Source: Rhizobium sp. GN54 (GTDB taxonomy: Bacteria; Pseudomonadota; Alphaproteobacteria; Rhizobiales; Rhizobiaceae). Taken from it: a stretch of DNA of 64,000 nt. Position numbers and translations under genes: made by a program. A model generated the notes under the pieces. It searched no databases and had not been told where the DNA came from. It saw only the letters and a program-made list of their open reading frames with translations. Shown in pieces: positions 29,892 through 36,818 of this stretch. The stretch covers positions 124,001 through 188,000 of the forward strand of contig NZ_JAJNCZ010000008.1 of assembly GCF_021026345.1 (NCBI RefSeq), in the 5' to 3' direction. Every line of letters begins with the position of its first letter. The stretch's first letter is position 1.

Positions 29892-30617
29892 TCAGTCGCC
29901 CTTGTTGCCGAGCAGCTTCTTCAGCATCTCCGCCATCGGGCCGGTCGCCGGCAGAATCTTGGGCTGGTTGTGGTTGCGCGCCTGGCGGATATGCGACTGG
30001 CCGCCGGCGGGCTTCGGCTGGGCGGCAGGCTTCGGCTTCTCCTCCGGCGTGGCGCCTATGGCAAGCGCGAGCTTGTTCATCAGCTGCGAATCCTCGCCCC
30101 GCACCAGCATGTCGGCATTGATCGCCAGTTCGTCGAGCAGGGGATCGAGCCAGGCGTGGTCGGCCTTGGCGAAATCGCCGAGCACGTGGTTGTGCACCAG
30201 TTCCTTGACGCCCGGGTGGCCGATGCCGAGCCGCAGGCGGCGATAGTCGCGGCCGCAATGGGCGTCGAGCGATTTCACGCCGTTGTGGCCGCCATGGCCG
30301 CCGCCGGTCTTGATGCGCGCCTTGCCGGGCGCAAGGTCGAGCTCGTCATAGATCGCGACGATGTCCTTGGGCGCGAGCTTGTAGAAGCGCATCGCCTCGC
30401 CGACGGCTTCACCGGACAGGTTCATGAAGGTCTGCGGCTTGATCAGCAGCACCTTCTCGCCGGCAAGCTCGCCCTCGGCGATCTCACCCTTGAACTTCCT
30501 CGACCACGGCGAGAACGGGTTCTTGCGGTGGATGGCGTCCACGGCCATGAAGCCGATATTGTGCCGGTTGCCGGCATATTTGGGGCCAGGATTGCCGAGG
30601 CCTGCGATGATCAGCAT
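29892..30617 (-). CDS. pth: Peptidyl-tRNA hydrolase
   Basis: This is a 241-residue enzyme. The N-terminus [20 protein letters not shown] carries the catalytic histidine. [13 protein letters not shown] and [12 protein letters not shown] are further family motifs. The last 60 residues are a Pro/Lys/Gln-rich extension common in alphaproteobacterial Pth. It releases peptidyl-tRNAs stalled in translation. The usual partner rplY lies in the same direction but is separated here by two signalling genes. Confidence 0.96.
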
Positions 30618-30712: not shown

Positions 30713-31468
30713 CTATCGCTGCGCCGTGCGGGTATTGGGAGGCAGGCCGTAGCGGGCGAAGATGGCGTCCTGGTCGCCGCTGGTGACAAGCGCGTCGAGC
30801 GCCTTCTGCAGGGCATCGATCGTTGTCTTCGGCACGCTCCTGTTGCAGGCGATGCCGTAGACCTGCCCCTCCATGAGCATGGCCCGCTCGATCGGTTCGC
30901 CTTCGGCGATCAGCGCGTCGTAGGTTTTCACGGAGGTCGGCATCAGGTCGATCCGGCCGCTCCTGAGCTTGCCGAGCGTGATTGCGATGTCGGTGGCGAG
31001 GTCGATGCCGGTGAAGCCCAGTTGCGTCAGGACATCGTAGCCGATGTCGCCGCGCTGCGAGCCGATCCGGAAGGCGCGGGCCTCGTCGAGCGTCGCCGCG
31101 TCGACCGGGCTTCCCTTACGCCTGACCATGACCATCTGGTCGCGGAGCAGGGGCTCGACCCAGGTGAACCTCTCGTGCCGCTCGGGGGTGTGGGCGGTGG
31201 TGAAGACGCAATGGTCCGCCTCCCGCTTGGCCAGCATCAGGGCGCGCGCCCAGGGCATGATCTCCATGCGGTAGGAGACGCCGGCGGCTTTTGCAATCCT
31301 GCGGACCTGTTCGACCGCGATGCCCCGGATGGAGCCGTCTTCGGAATAGTTGAAGGGGGCATATTCCTCCGTCACGAAGGTGATTTCGGCTGCAAGCGCA
31401 GGGCGGACGGGGCTTGTGCAGAGCGCCAGAACGGCCAGAGCGGCAAGGACGGTCTTCGTCGGCATCAT
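30713..31468 (-). CDS. Periplasmic solute-binding protein, family 3 type
   Basis: This is a protein of about 251 residues with a signal peptide (MMPTKTVLAALAVLALCTSPVRPALA). A type-II binding fold follows: FVTEEYAPFNYSEDGSIRGI at the ligand cleft and RIGSQRGDIGYDVLTQLG in the second lobe. Its start is 20 bp after the GGDEF-EAL stop, in the same direction. No ABC permease or ATPase is adjacent, so it may act as a sensor subunit for the diguanylate cyclase/phosphodiesterase rather than in uptake (inference). GGAGG lies 11 bases before the first of two adjacent ATGs. Confidence 0.85.
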   Translation of the reverse strand: MMPTKTVLAALAVLALCTSPVRPALAAEITFVTEEYAPFNYSEDGSIRGIAVEQVRRIAKAAGVSYRMEIMPWARALMLAKREADHCVFTTAHTPERHERFTWVEPLLRDQMVMVRRKGSPVDAATLDEARAFRIGSQRGDIGYDVLTQLGFTGIDLATDIAITLGKLRSGRIDLMPTSVKTYDALIAEGEPIERAMLMEGQVYGIACNRSVPKTTIDALQKALDALVTSGDQDAIFARYGLPPNTRTAQR

Positions 31469-31487
31469 GCGCGCAATCGCCTCCATT

Positions 31488-33890
31488 TCAGAGCCGGCTG
31501 CCGGCGACCGCGCGGTCATGGCCGTGCGGTCGGGCGGCGATGTGCGACAGCCTCGCCATCAGGCCGGGCAGGGGCAGCGGCTCGCTGAAAAGATAGCCCT
31601 GGCCGAAATCCAGCCCGATCTCGGTCAGGACCTGCAACTGGTGCTCCGTCTCGATGCCCTCGGCGACGACGATGCATCCCATCTGGTGCGAGATCATCGT
31701 GATGCCTTCGATCAGCGTGCGGCTCTTGCGGCTGATTTCGGCCTCCTGCGTGCCGATGGAGCGGACGAAGGACTGGTCCACCTTGACGATGTCGACCGGG
31801 AAGCGGTTGAGATAGCTGAGCGAGGAATAGCCGGTCCCGAAATCGTCCAGCGCGATCCGGCAGCCGAGCTCGCCGAGCGCGTCCAGTACGTGGCGCACGG
31901 CGGGACTGTCGAGCATCAGCACGGCCTCGGTGATCTCGATGACGATGCGCGAGGCGGTGACGCCGTGTTCGAGCAGGATGGCGGCGAGCCGGCTCGGCAG
32001 GGCGGCGTCGAACTGCAACGGGGAGAAGTTGACCGCGAGGTAGCAGTCGCCCATGCCGCTGATCTGCGAAACCGCGGCAAGGCTGCGGATCGCCTTCTCG
32101 AAGATCACGTCGCCGACCTTGCCGATCGTGCCGTTCTCCTCCGCCACGCCGACGATCTCGTCGGGGACGAGAACGCCCTTTTCCGGGTGGCGCAGGCGCA
32201 TCAGTGCCTCGAAGCCGGCAACGCGACCGGTGCCGAGTTCGACGATCGGCTGCAGATAGGCCTCGAACCAGTCCTCGCGCAGCGCCTGCTCGATGCACTG
32301 CTCGATCTCGAGGCGCCTGCGGGCGATGTCGACGATCTCGTCGTCGAACAGCCGCGTGCCGTTCTTGCCGTTGCGCTTGCGGGCATACATGGCCATGTCG
32401 GACTTCTGCAGGAGATCGCCGGCGCTTGCGGCATGGTCCGGGTAGACGGCGACGCCGATGCTGGCGCTGACGTTGAGCCGGCTGCCGTTGATCATCACCG
32501 GTTCCTTCAGCGCCCGGCACAGTCGGTCGCCGATATCCATCGCCACCTGCACGGCATCCGGCGAGATCAAGAGGATCGCGAACTCGTCGCCACCCAGCCG
32601 GGCGACCATGTCGTTGAAGCGCAACTGGTTGCGCAGGCGGACCGCTACCTCGCAGAGGACCTGGTCGCCCACGGCATGGCCGAGATTGTCGTTGATCCAC
32701 TTGAACCGGTCGAGGTCCAGGAACAGGCAGGCCAGTTGCTGCTTTTCCTCCTCCGCCTTGGCGATGAGTTCGCCCAGTACCGATTCGAAGCCCTGGCGGT
32801 TCAGGAGCCCGGTCAGGTGGTCGGTGATGGCCTGGCGGTGGTTGCGGTTTTCCGCTTCCTTCAGGCCGGAGACGTCGGTCATGACCGAAAGCGTCGGCCC
32901 GCGCTGCCCGCCGTCTGAATCCATGGCCACTTCGTGGACGAGCACGTCCATCACCGATGCATCGGCCCGATGAAAGCGGACGGTGACCTCGCAGATCCCC
33001 TCGCCATTGATGCCCTTTTCGTGGCGATCGCGGTAGATCAGGTGGTCGGCGGCGTCGACGAATTCGGTGAACCCCCTGCCGATCACGGCGTCGCGGCTGT
33101 AGCCGGTGGCGACCAGCCAGTAGTCGCTGACGGCTGCGATGCAGTTTTCCGCATCGATCGTGAACAGCATGGCGGGGGTTCTGTTGTAGATCTCGGTGGT
33201 GCGGGCATGGGCCAGCTTCAGCTCGTTTTCCTCGCGCTCGAGCCGGCTCTGCATCTCGTTGAAGTTGCGAGCGAGGTAGCCCATCTCGTCGTTCGAGGTC
33301 CAGTCGACCTGGTGGCGCGAGCCGAGCCGGCGGGTCGCCTCGATGGCCGCCGTCAGCCGCATCAGCGGCCGGATGATCGTGACGCGGTTGCCGATGATCG
33401 CCGCGACGAAGATCGTGCCGACGGCGAAGAGGAAGATGAGGAAGACGGCAGCCTCGTCCCTGGTCAGCCGCGAAATCGGGCCGGCTTCGGCGACCCAGAT
33501 CTCTGCGCTTCCGACCTTCCGTGTGCCATCGCTCGCCTCGTAGAGGATGTCGGAGACGACGGTCGACTGCACGGCGTCGGGATCCGGCGGGGAGGGGGGC
33601 ATCCGGATGTCGATCGTGCCGGAGGTGTCGCGGACGCGGACATAGATGACGTTGGCGCCGGACCGAAGGGCTGTGGCGATCGTTGCAGTGCTGTCCGCAT
33701 CCAGGTCCCACAGCGGCTTGCCCAGCGCCTGCACGTTGGCCTGGAGGAGGATCTCCGCGTCGTTCAGCCTCTCGCGGGTGACGCGTTCGGAAGAGAGGGC
33801 GAGGAAGAGGGCAAAGAGCGGGGCGACGAAAAGCAGGAAGGCGCCGAAGACGATCGCGATGAAGCGGCTTTCGACAGAATGGATTTTCAT
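31488..33890 (-). CDS. Membrane-bound sensor with HAMP, PAS, GGDEF and EAL domains
   Basis: This is an 800-residue protein. A membrane helix (~10-32) is followed by a periplasmic segment to ~150, a second helix, a HAMP region (~180-230), a PAS domain (~240-360), GGDEF (~370-535) and EAL (~550-790). Both outputs keep their active-site motifs: RLGGDEF with an inhibitory RFND site five residues upstream, EALMRLR, DDFGTGYSSLSYL and EGIETEHQ. It can in principle both make and degrade c-di-GMP. GGGGGA sets the start. The next gene encodes a periplasmic binding protein. Confidence 0.94.
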   Translation of the reverse strand: MKIHSVESRFIAIVFGAFLLFVAPLFALFLALSSERVTRERLNDAEILLQANVQALGKPLWDLDADSTATIATALRSGANVIYVRVRDTSGTIDIRMPPSPPDPDAVQSTVVSDILYEASDGTRKVGSAEIWVAEAGPISRLTRDEAAVFLIFLFAVGTIFVAAIIGNRVTIIRPLMRLTAAIEATRRLGSRHQVDWTSNDEMGYLARNFNEMQSRLEREENELKLAHARTTEIYNRTPAMLFTIDAENCIAAVSDYWLVATGYSRDAVIGRGFTEFVDAADHLIYRDRHEKGINGEGICEVTVRFHRADASVMDVLVHEVAMDSDGGQRGPTLSVMTDVSGLKEAENRNHRQAITDHLTGLLNRQGFESVLGELIAKAEEEKQQLACLFLDLDRFKWINDNLGHAVGDQVLCEVAVRLRNQLRFNDMVARLGGDEFAILLISPDAVQVAMDIGDRLCRALKEPVMINGSRLNVSASIGVAVYPDHAASAGDLLQKSDMAMYARKRNGKNGTRLFDDEIVDIARRRLEIEQCIEQALREDWFEAYLQPIVELGTGRVAGFEALMRLRHPEKGVLVPDEIVGVAEENGTIGKVGDVIFEKAIRSLAAVSQISGMGDCYLAVNFSPLQFDAALPSRLAAILLEHGVTASRIVIEITEAVLMLDSPAVRHVLDALGELGCRIALDDFGTGYSSLSYLNRFPVDIVKVDQSFVRSIGTQEAEISRKSRTLIEGITMISHQMGCIVVAEGIETEHQLQVLTEIGLDFGQGYLFSEPLPLPGLMARLSHIAARPHGHDRAVAGSRL

Positions 33891-34017
33891 GCCATCCCCC
33901 CTGTTCGTGCCGGCACCAGCCGCCGGCCGTCTTTTTCTCGTTTGGTCTCAAACCCGCCTGTGAGTATTTCGTGAATTTCTTAAATGTTATTGAAGTCAAA
34001 ACCTTCGGGCATAAGAA

Positions 34018-34045
34018 AACCCGCCTCCGTTTCCGAAGGCGGGTT
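34018..34045 (-). terminator. Rho-independent terminator of rplY
   Basis: AACCCGCCT (34018-34026) and AGGCGGGTT (34037-34045) form a perfect 9-bp stem. Read on the - strand it is followed by a short T run. It lies 30 bp beyond the rplY stop. Confidence 0.88.
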
Positions 34046-34074
34046 CGATCGAAATGAAGCAGGCTTGAAGAAGC

Positions 34075-34686
34075 TTATTCTTCGCTCGTCTCGGCCTCGG
34101 CTTCTTCTTCCTTCGCGGCAGCGGTGCCGACGATGGTCGCAACAGTGAAGTCGCGGTCGGTGATGACCGGGCTCGCGTTCTTCGGCAGCTTGGTGTGCGA
34201 GATGTGGATGCTGTCGCCGATCTTCAGGCCGTCGAGGTCGAAGGTGATGGCTTCCGGAATGTCGTTTGCCGGGCAGTGCAGCTCGACTTCGTGGCGGACG
34301 ATGTTCAGCATGCCGCCCATCTTGAGGCCCGGGGACTTCTCTTCGTTAACGAAGTGGACCGGAACCTGGACGGTGACGCGGCTGGAGGCCGAGACGCGCA
34401 GGAAGTCGACGTGCATGGTGAAGTCGCGGACGGGGTCGAGCTGGTAGTCCTTCGGCAGGACCGAGATCTTCTCGCCGTTGACGTCGATCGTGGCAACCGT
34501 CGTCATGAAGCCGCCGGCGTGGATGCGCTGGGTGACTTCCTTGGTCGACAGGGCGATCGAAAGCGGGGCCTTCTTGTCACCATAGATGACAGCCGGGATA
34601 AGACCGTTGCGGCGAAGTTCGCGGGAGGACCCCTTACCAACCCGTTCGCGCGTCTCGGCCTTGAGCTCGTAGGATGAGTGGCTCAT
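34075..34686 (-). CDS. rplY: 50S ribosomal protein L25, CTC form
   Basis: This is a 203-residue protein. The N-terminal L25 domain ([34 protein letters not shown]) binds 5S rRNA, and a C-terminal TL5-type beta domain runs from about residue 95 ([19 protein letters not shown]). The acidic tail [11 protein letters not shown] is usual. AAAGG precedes the start. A clear terminator follows, so the GGDEF-EAL gene downstream is transcribed separately. Confidence 0.97.
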
Positions 34687-36227: not shown

Positions 36228-36818
36228 TCAGCCGCGGCATTCTCCCGGCCGCAGGACGCGGTAGCCGTCATTGCCGGCCGAGCAGGCGTTCGGGAACGTG
36301 CGCAGCCTGCCGCCCCGTTCGGCGCAGACGGGGGCATACTCCATCGTGCACATGCGCTCGGGTTCGCGGTCGGGGCGGCCGGGCCTGTCGGGACGATCAG
36401 GCCGCGGGGGTGGCGGCGTCCGGCGGCATTCGCCGCGGGATACGACGCGGAAGCCGTCGCTCTGCGCCAGGCAGGAATTGGAGAAGGTCTGCCGGCGTCC
36501 GCCGCGCTCGGCGCAGACCGGGGCGTATTCGCGCGTGCAGATGCGGGCCGCGGGCTCGCCGCGGCATTGGCCGCGATGGGCGATGTCGAAGCCGCGGCTG
36601 CGGGCCTCGCAGGCATTGGGGAAGGTCTGGCGGCGTACGCCGCGCTCGCCGCAGACGGGCGCATACTCCATGGTGCAGGCGACAGGCGGCCGCGGCGAAG
36701 GTCCGCCTCCATGGCCGGGAGACGTCTCGACCGTGCAGGCGGCGAGGAGCGGAAGGAGGCTCAGGGAGATGCAGAGACGATGCGCGCGGCTGGCGATGAA
36801 ACCTCGTCTATCCGGCAT
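36228..36818 (-). CDS. Lipoprotein with three Kazal-like modules
   Basis: This is a 196-residue secreted protein. The N-terminus has a signal peptide ending in the lipobox LLAAC (lipidated Cys28). Three modules follow with identical cysteine spacing C-x7-C-x13-C-x14-C: Cys 48/56/70/85, 94/102/116/131 and 157/165/179/194. Each begins C-T-x-E-Y-A-P-V-C and contains T-F-x-N-x-C, as in Kazal-type protease inhibitors, but with four rather than six cysteines. A Pro/Arg/Asp linker (PPPPRPDRPDRPGRPDRE) precedes module 3. GGGAGG sits six bases before the ATG. It probably inhibits or binds proteases in the periplasm or at the surface (inference). Confidence 0.85.
   Translation of the reverse strand: MPDRRGFIASRAHRLCISLSLLPLLAACTVETSPGHGGGPSPRPPVACTMEYAPVCGERGVRRQTFPNACEARSRGFDIAHRGQCRGEPAARICTREYAPVCAERGGRRQTFSNSCLAQSDGFRVVSRGECRRTPPPPRPDRPDRPGRPDREPERMCTMEYAPVCAERGGRLRTFPNACSAGNDGYRVLRPGECRG

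Follow-up and report, generated by a model that had tools for sequence, protein, structure and literature searches.

A stretch of 64,000 nt from Rhizobium sp. GN54 (NZ_JAJNCZ010000008.1, positions 124,001-188,000), called here the window and used for all coordinates below, carries between rplY and pth the gene of a membrane GGDEF-EAL sensor followed by the gene of an orphan family-3 solute-binding protein (SBP). It is probable that the two genes form an operon for a co-receptor of cyclic di-GMP (c-di-GMP) signalling, in which the SBP docks on the sensor at its CHASE5-like periplasmic domain and tips the balance between making c-di-GMP and breaking it down. This reading draws on direct observations: the gene order and its conservation, the co-occurrence of both genes and their pairing at more than one genomic site, the conserved catalytic residues, the relation of the periplasmic domain to CHASE5 and the specialised SBP motif. 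A two-gene c-di-GMP switch had been proposed in a sequence-only reading of the window, and the comparative evidence supports it. The features of the locus are as follows.

31488..33890, minus strand: membrane GGDEF-EAL sensor, 800 amino acids, with transmembrane segment TM1, periplasmic domain, TM2, HAMP, PAS, GGDEF and EAL (Pfam; transmembrane segments by eye)
33447..33794, minus strand: CHASE5-like periplasmic domain, residues ~33-148 (hhalign against a CHASE5 alignment; limits by eye)
33237..33380, minus strand: HAMP, residues 171-218 (Pfam)
32868..33167, minus strand: PAS, residues 242-341 (Pfam PAS_9)
32361..32831, minus strand: GGDEF with RLGGDEF and the I-site RFND (Pfam)
31578..32294, minus strand: EAL with EALMR and DDFGTG (Pfam)
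30713..31468, minus strand: orphan family-3 SBP, 251 amino acids (PF00497)
~31391-31468, minus strand: signal peptide of the SBP (by eye)
34017..34046, minus strand: likely rplY terminator, 13-bp stem with the tail UUUUCUU (fold -26.6 kcal/mol, z -3.03)
34075..34686, minus strand: rplY (L25/TL5), upstream flank of the pair (Pfam)
29892..30617, minus strand: pth, downstream flank of the pair (Pfam; start set by homology match)

The sequence-only reading had described a full HAMP-PAS-GGDEF-EAL sensor beside a family-3 SBP at this place, and its coordinates and Pfam content were right. The likely start of the SBP gene is the ATG at 31468, 19 bp past the sensor stop, and a GGAGG motif ends 11 nt before this start codon; an alternative ATG at 31519 would overlap the sensor gene. 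Since a hairpin with a U-rich tail lies 3' of rplY, the pair is probably not co-transcribed with rplY. The promoter scan gave no sigma-70 promoter, and the pattern scan for terminators also missed the hairpin. The earlier remark that the SBP comes with no ATP-binding cassette (ABC) permease holds for the eight neighbouring proteins scanned with Pfam, none of which is one.

The conservation of the pair was followed in a survey of 199 genomes drawn from the GTDB family Rhizobiaceae (G numbers). The SBP is present at E <=1e-20 in 37 of them, from 20 genera, and the loci, all of which were read, have the order rplY-sensor-SBP-pth in every case (37/37). The N-terminal part of the sensor scores below 1e-50 in 38 genomes, followed by G161 (1e-32) and G085 (5e-17), and two further sensor matches reach the HAMP end only. 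In a collection of named genomes, 31 of 35 SBP loci belong to Rhizobium, Shinella, Mycoplana or 'Rhizobiales bacterium', all with the same gene order; five of the 31 repeat G genomes. The flanking genes are normally close neighbours, as the first reading had stated: in a gap sample of 69 genomes taken from among the matches listed, rplY and pth are never more than 244 bp apart, with a median of 82 bp, in all 67 genomes without a sensor there. Many related bacteria keep the sensor and SBP genes side by side, so the SBP probably informs the sensor about conditions outside the cell. In three genomes of a single genus (G014, G117 and G187; L082, L100 and L114) the sensor is followed by a tandem of two SBP genes, and the second of them is 39-40% identical to the SBP of the window; one receptor is perhaps served there by two ligands.

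The pair also occurs at other genomic sites. A second pair lies elsewhere in G045 and G138, and the frame of the second sensor is open in G138. The second sensor of G045 (L086, 5227-7721) is split over two frames and is possibly a decaying duplicate. A plasmid collection gave 13 records with a match to the SBP and 12 with one to the sensor; all 12 sensor records also hold the SBP, and ten of these paired records are from Sinorhizobium. The megaplasmid of S. fredii NGR234 carries a copy as well. Two megaplasmid loci were read (S. americanum CCGM7 plasmid C and S. fredii psfSMH12a), and in both the sensor is followed by the SBP, with rplY and pth absent in 12.6 kb. A 408-kb record of R. leguminosarum shows the usual rplY-pth setting and a Shinella record is 4.6 Mb in size, so neither is an independent site. 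The thirteenth record, from Pseudoalteromonas (L301), holds an SBP at 32% with no annotated receptor adjoining. The co-occurrence search thus bears out the pairing suggested by the window: an adjacent sensor in all SBP-bearing genomes of the family, and a partner for the copies at other sites.

The sensor matches the Pfam models of GGDEF at 4e-45 and of EAL at 3e-62, and its HAMP domain reaches 24.3 bits in a full-length scan, against a Pfam cut-off of 25, and 25.2 bits in an N-terminal scan. The motifs that had been reported as intact in the window sensor (RLGGDEF, RFND I-site, EALMR and DDFGTG) are all present. An orthologue alignment was built from 71 sensors, 66 of them distinct, with the split L086 copy left out. 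The tested catalytic columns of GGDEF and EAL are kept in 71/71 sequences, the sole exception being one ECL that replaces EAL. Given these conserved columns, both synthesis and breakdown activities are predicted, and the sensor is a predicted bifunctional GGDEF-EAL enzyme. The GGDEF motif occurs in all 71 orthologues and the I-site RxxD in only 38, so feedback inhibition is optional.

Judged by profile-profile similarity, the periplasmic domain of the sensor belongs to a CHASE5-like superfamily. The comparison of the sensor alignment A1 with 20 CHASE5 domains (A5) by hhalign gave a probability of 96.7 and an E value of 4e-10 over 96 columns (columns 42-141). At E <=1, 26 of 37 relatives match CHASE5 (PF17149), the best at 5.1e-5. 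The window sensor has no PF17149 match up to E 1, and only HAMP passes the Pfam cut-off in its N-terminal part. A search of solved structures with the sensor returned HAMP and transmembrane matches and weak chance matches, none of them convincing for the periplasmic part.

The SBP matches PF00497 (SBP_bac_3) at 62.1 bits (cut-off 26.4), which is its only Pfam match, and its first 26 residues resemble a Sec signal peptide by eye, in agreement with the earlier view that it is secreted. Its motif was compared in 50 of the 53 rows of the SBP alignment A2 and in 13 further family-3 SBPs encoded by this genome, some of which lack importer genes beside them; the distant rows L035, L036 and L117, without both cysteines by eye, were left out of the count. 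R97 is kept in 50/50 relatives and in 12/13 of the other family-3 SBPs. Position 179 is S in 40 relatives, A in 5, T in 4 and G in 1, and Asp in 8/13 of the others. P72 and W73 are found in 50/50 relatives and in 1/13 and 6/13 of the others, respectively, while R75, C87 and C208 are found in 50/50 relatives and in 0/13 of the others. The two cysteines likely form a disulphide, and by its residues the motif is specialised relative to the other family-3 SBPs of the genome. In family-3 SBPs the Arg presumably binds the carboxylate of the ligand and the Asp its alpha-amino group; with these roles, the retention of Arg97 and the loss of Asp at position 179 suggest that the ligand is a carboxylate other than an ordinary alpha-amino acid. 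Beyond rplY lies a gene for a BenE-type benzoate transporter (PF03594, 34870-36063, minus strand), and an aromatic acid as the SBP ligand is a guess prompted by this nearby gene. A BenE-type gene also lies beyond rplY in several Mycoplana-like loci (L004-L006, L008).

From these properties a sequence of events can be proposed. The SBP would be secreted to the periplasm by means of its signal peptide, and would bind there a small ligand; going by the SBP motif, this is probably a carboxylate other than an ordinary alpha-amino acid. The SBP would then dock on the GGDEF-EAL protein at its CHASE5-like periplasmic domain. On the model of NspS-MbaA and ScrB-ScrC, docking would shift TM2, HAMP and PAS, and the enzyme would move between c-di-GMP synthesis and hydrolysis.

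SBP genes also stand beside CHASE5 receptors of other bacteria. Among 299 Pseudomonadota genomes, 37 have matches to PF17149, in 55 rows altogether, and 40 of the 55 neighbourhoods were examined; the other 15 were close to the end of a contig or among the weak matches. Neighbourhood rows are not independent in this survey, since a single genus contributes several of them, and contig ends truncate some of the flanks. With the Rhizobiaceae SBP profile (E <1e-3), an SBP-like open reading frame (ORF) was found near 18/40 CHASE5 genes, and after iteration near 28/40. In 26 of the 28 cases the ORF adjoins the receptor gene at its N-terminal end, 21 times on the same strand and 5 times divergently; the ORF of L126 is immediately downstream of the CHASE5 gene, and another ORF separates that of L129 from it. 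Pfam was run on nine of the 28 ORFs: five match SBP_bac_3 below the cut-off (L130, L133, L143, L144, L153) and four have no match (L126, L136, L142, L161). The 28 paired receptors comprise 22 with a kinase motif and 6 with none of the motifs sought.

Similar neighbourhoods were seen around alphaproteobacterial A1-like sensors, 42 of which were found with the sensor alignment A1 and 40 examined. An SBP lies near 13 of them, always on the N-terminal side (10 with the CHASE5-set hidden Markov model, 6 with the uniterated profile), and these receptors have a kinase motif in 3 cases, a chemoreceptor motif in 3 and none of the motifs sought in 7. Two sets of receptors served as controls. The first consisted of 40 dCache_1 receptors, hand-picked from the CHASE5 genomes, near which no SBP-like ORF was found with any profile (0/40); by motif, 22 of the 40 are chemoreceptors, and kinase or GGDEF motifs occur in just 6. 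Chemoreceptor genes are said to adjoin SBP genes less often (PMC11113362). Since a control made up mostly of chemoreceptors is too easy, a second one, closer in output, was added from the same genomes (19 CHASE and 1 CHASE4; 18/20 with kinase or GGDEF motifs). Only one of these 20 receptors has an SBP-like ORF nearby, namely L308, where the SBP is immediately upstream of a CHASE-GGDEF gene.

The search can also be made from the side of the SBP, relatives of which occur at E <=1e-12 in 67 of the 299 Pseudomonadota genomes. Thirty loci were fetched, 25 of them from outside Rhizobiaceae, with flanks of 1.5 kb, and six of the 25 have a neighbour that matches the sensor profile. L256 holds the SBP relative nearest to the family from outside it, and next comes a chemoreceptor-like protein (~2214 to the locus end) whose periplasmic domain is CHASE5-like, suggesting that the same module is also used in chemotaxis. 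Other neighbours are GGDEF proteins (L273, L278 and L263, the last being cut, with its GGDEF start seen by eye), a kinase (L274) and, in L270, a protein cut too short to classify. Two distant cases agree by eye: a kinase with a similar domain stands before the SBP in SAR324 (L035) and after it in G085 (L117).

Several neighbours of these receptors do not belong to family 3. The divergent neighbour at L127:5204-6190 is ABC_sub_bind, below the cut-off, and that at L189:3202-4326 is SBP_bac_8, so the partners may extend beyond family 3. Two periplasmic-looking proteins beside CHASE5 genes (L129:3425-4327 and L135:5419-6318) have no Pfam match and are alike by eye; they may be a further partner family. 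In archaea, ORFs of ~800 amino acids with an SBP-like part at 28% identity (L037 from Methanospirillum, L038 from a Methanomicrobiales metagenome-assembled genome) are possibly fused receptors.

The chances are about even that the arrangement is general. CHASE5 domains, with some of the wider CHASE5-like group, would then serve for the docking of dedicated orphan family-3-like SBPs, as a single module that across Pseudomonadota became joined in evolution to histidine kinases, to diguanylate cyclases and to chemoreceptor-like proteins, and in Rhizobiaceae to a bifunctional c-di-GMP enzyme.

A number of results weigh against docking. Two genomes, G092 (L093) and G161 (L109), have a catalytically conserved sensor between rplY and pth with no SBP there, and no SBP was found elsewhere in them at E <=1e-20. 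Family-3-like SBPs are lacking near 12/40 CHASE5 genes and 27/40 A1-like sensors, and 19 of the 25 SBP loci outside the family show no sensor-like neighbour in 1.5 kb. The SBP-less CHASE5 genes include three for GGDEF-EAL proteins of one genus (L140, L141, L145), the first of which adjoins an acetate kinase gene. No two-hybrid interaction was seen between the CHASE5 domain of AruS and the neighbouring SBP PA4985 (PMC11113362); the AruS domain is reported to have been insoluble. Finally, the SBP distances in a mirror-tree comparison correlate at 0.75 with the periplasmic domain and at 0.78 with GGDEF, which is unspecific, and the partial correlations are 0.57 for GGDEF and 0.34 for the periplasmic domain (0.34 was reached by 0/2000 permutations). 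The Pth distances of this test are odd (mean 0.9, correlations near 0, probably ragged ends), and the test was not used as support. The loci L093 and L109 are natural cases for an SBP-independent function.

Some of these results would be expected if the SBP served an ABC importer encoded elsewhere, or scavenged alone, and merely sat in the operon of a sensor that detects its signal directly. The sensors without an SBP in G092 and G161, the 19 outside-family SBP relatives and the Pseudoalteromonas SBP without an annotated receptor fit such an arrangement, and one study notes that neighbouring SBP and kinase genes are not always linked (PMC11113362). This explanation appears unlikely in view of the genome itself, which holds 18 family-3 SBP genes. 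Permease-like or ATPase-like ORFs lie within 1.5 kb of 13 of them, by a crude screen for hydropathy and ATPase motifs, but not of this SBP, nor of four others; the same screen flagged no importer genes in the flanks of L294. Only two other proteins of the genome match this SBP at E <=0.001, with 23-25% identity, and the sensor is present in all 37 SBP genomes of the family and beside the copies at other sites.

An indirect link, in which the SBP buffers or delivers a ligand that binds in free form to the CHASE5-like domain, would also explain the SBP-less sensors. It is improbable, as SBP-like genes stand beside CHASE5 and CHASE5-like receptors of varied outputs and taxa, which a physical partnership fits better. 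Still further from likely is pure conservation of the locus, by which the pair arrived between rplY and pth a single time and has since been passed on without being functionally coupled. Its location at one site in 37/37 SBP genomes and the unspecific mirror-tree signal agree with that history; against it stand G106, which lacks both genes when G178 of the same genus has both, the paired copies on megaplasmids, and the frequencies in other taxa (28/40 against 0/40 and 1/20).

There are known systems with the same logic. In NspS-MbaA of Vibrio cholerae (smc00991-smc00992 in S. meliloti), the polyamine state sets the c-di-GMP output, and the two-gene operon likewise combines a periplasmic binding protein with a membrane HAMP-GGDEF-EAL enzyme (PMC9993111). 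NspS is PotD/PotF-like and binds polyamines, whereas SBP_bac_3 is the only Pfam match of the SBP here; V. cholerae nspS precedes and overlaps mbaA, whereas the SBP gene follows the sensor here. S. meliloti MbaA has 233 periplasmic residues, SGDEF and no I-site, in contrast to the ~115 periplasmic residues, CHASE5-like domain, GGDEF and I-site of the window sensor. In ScrABC of Vibrio parahaemolyticus, ScrB loaded with the S-signal switches the GGDEF-EAL protein ScrC to breakdown, which is again a periplasmic binding protein with a dual-function GGDEF-EAL enzyme (PMC10269520, PMC11315295). That operon includes scrA, the gene of the aminotransferase that makes the S-signal, which has no counterpart between rplY and pth; the distinction is one of operon content.

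In PruR-DcpA and PruR-DTB of Agrobacterium tumefaciens and other Proteobacteria, a periplasmic module is tied to a GGDEF-EAL protein or a sensor kinase (PMC13259868). The two-gene operon and the type of periplasmic module are alike, but PruR is no SBP; it is a pterin protein of the sulfite-oxidase-like kind. The DcpA-type domain has a WX7E motif; here, Glu stands at W61+8 in 12/71 sensors, and Ala in the window. AruS and PA4985 share with our pair a CHASE5 periplasmic domain and an SBP gene nearby, and differ from it in that PA4985 is SBP_bac_8, another SBP family (PMC11113362). The pair thus differs from NspS-MbaA, ScrB-ScrC and PruR-DcpA/DTB by the features tested and shares their logic.

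One further gene of the window can be mentioned. At 36228-36818 on the minus strand, a small protein is encoded with three repeats of the CTxEYAPVCxERGxRxQTFxNxC type and proline-rich linkers between them; we take these repeats to resemble Kazal-type inhibitor modules.

No description of this sensor-SBP pair was found in the literature searched, in which subscription journals are thinly covered, so that the absence is weak evidence; nor was an assigned ligand for CHASE5 found there. With the pair, a probable c-di-GMP co-receptor not described in that literature is added for rhizobia of nodules and soil; its enzyme is predicted to have both activities, and its partner protein is open to ligand screening. 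The pair is real, conserved and functionally plausible, and the possibility that CHASE5 is an SBP-docking domain is the part most worth testing. If true, the role of CHASE5 would be to bind an SBP instead of a small molecule, which is testable, and SBP genes beside CHASE5 receptors would be candidate signal-binding proteins for many orphan kinases.

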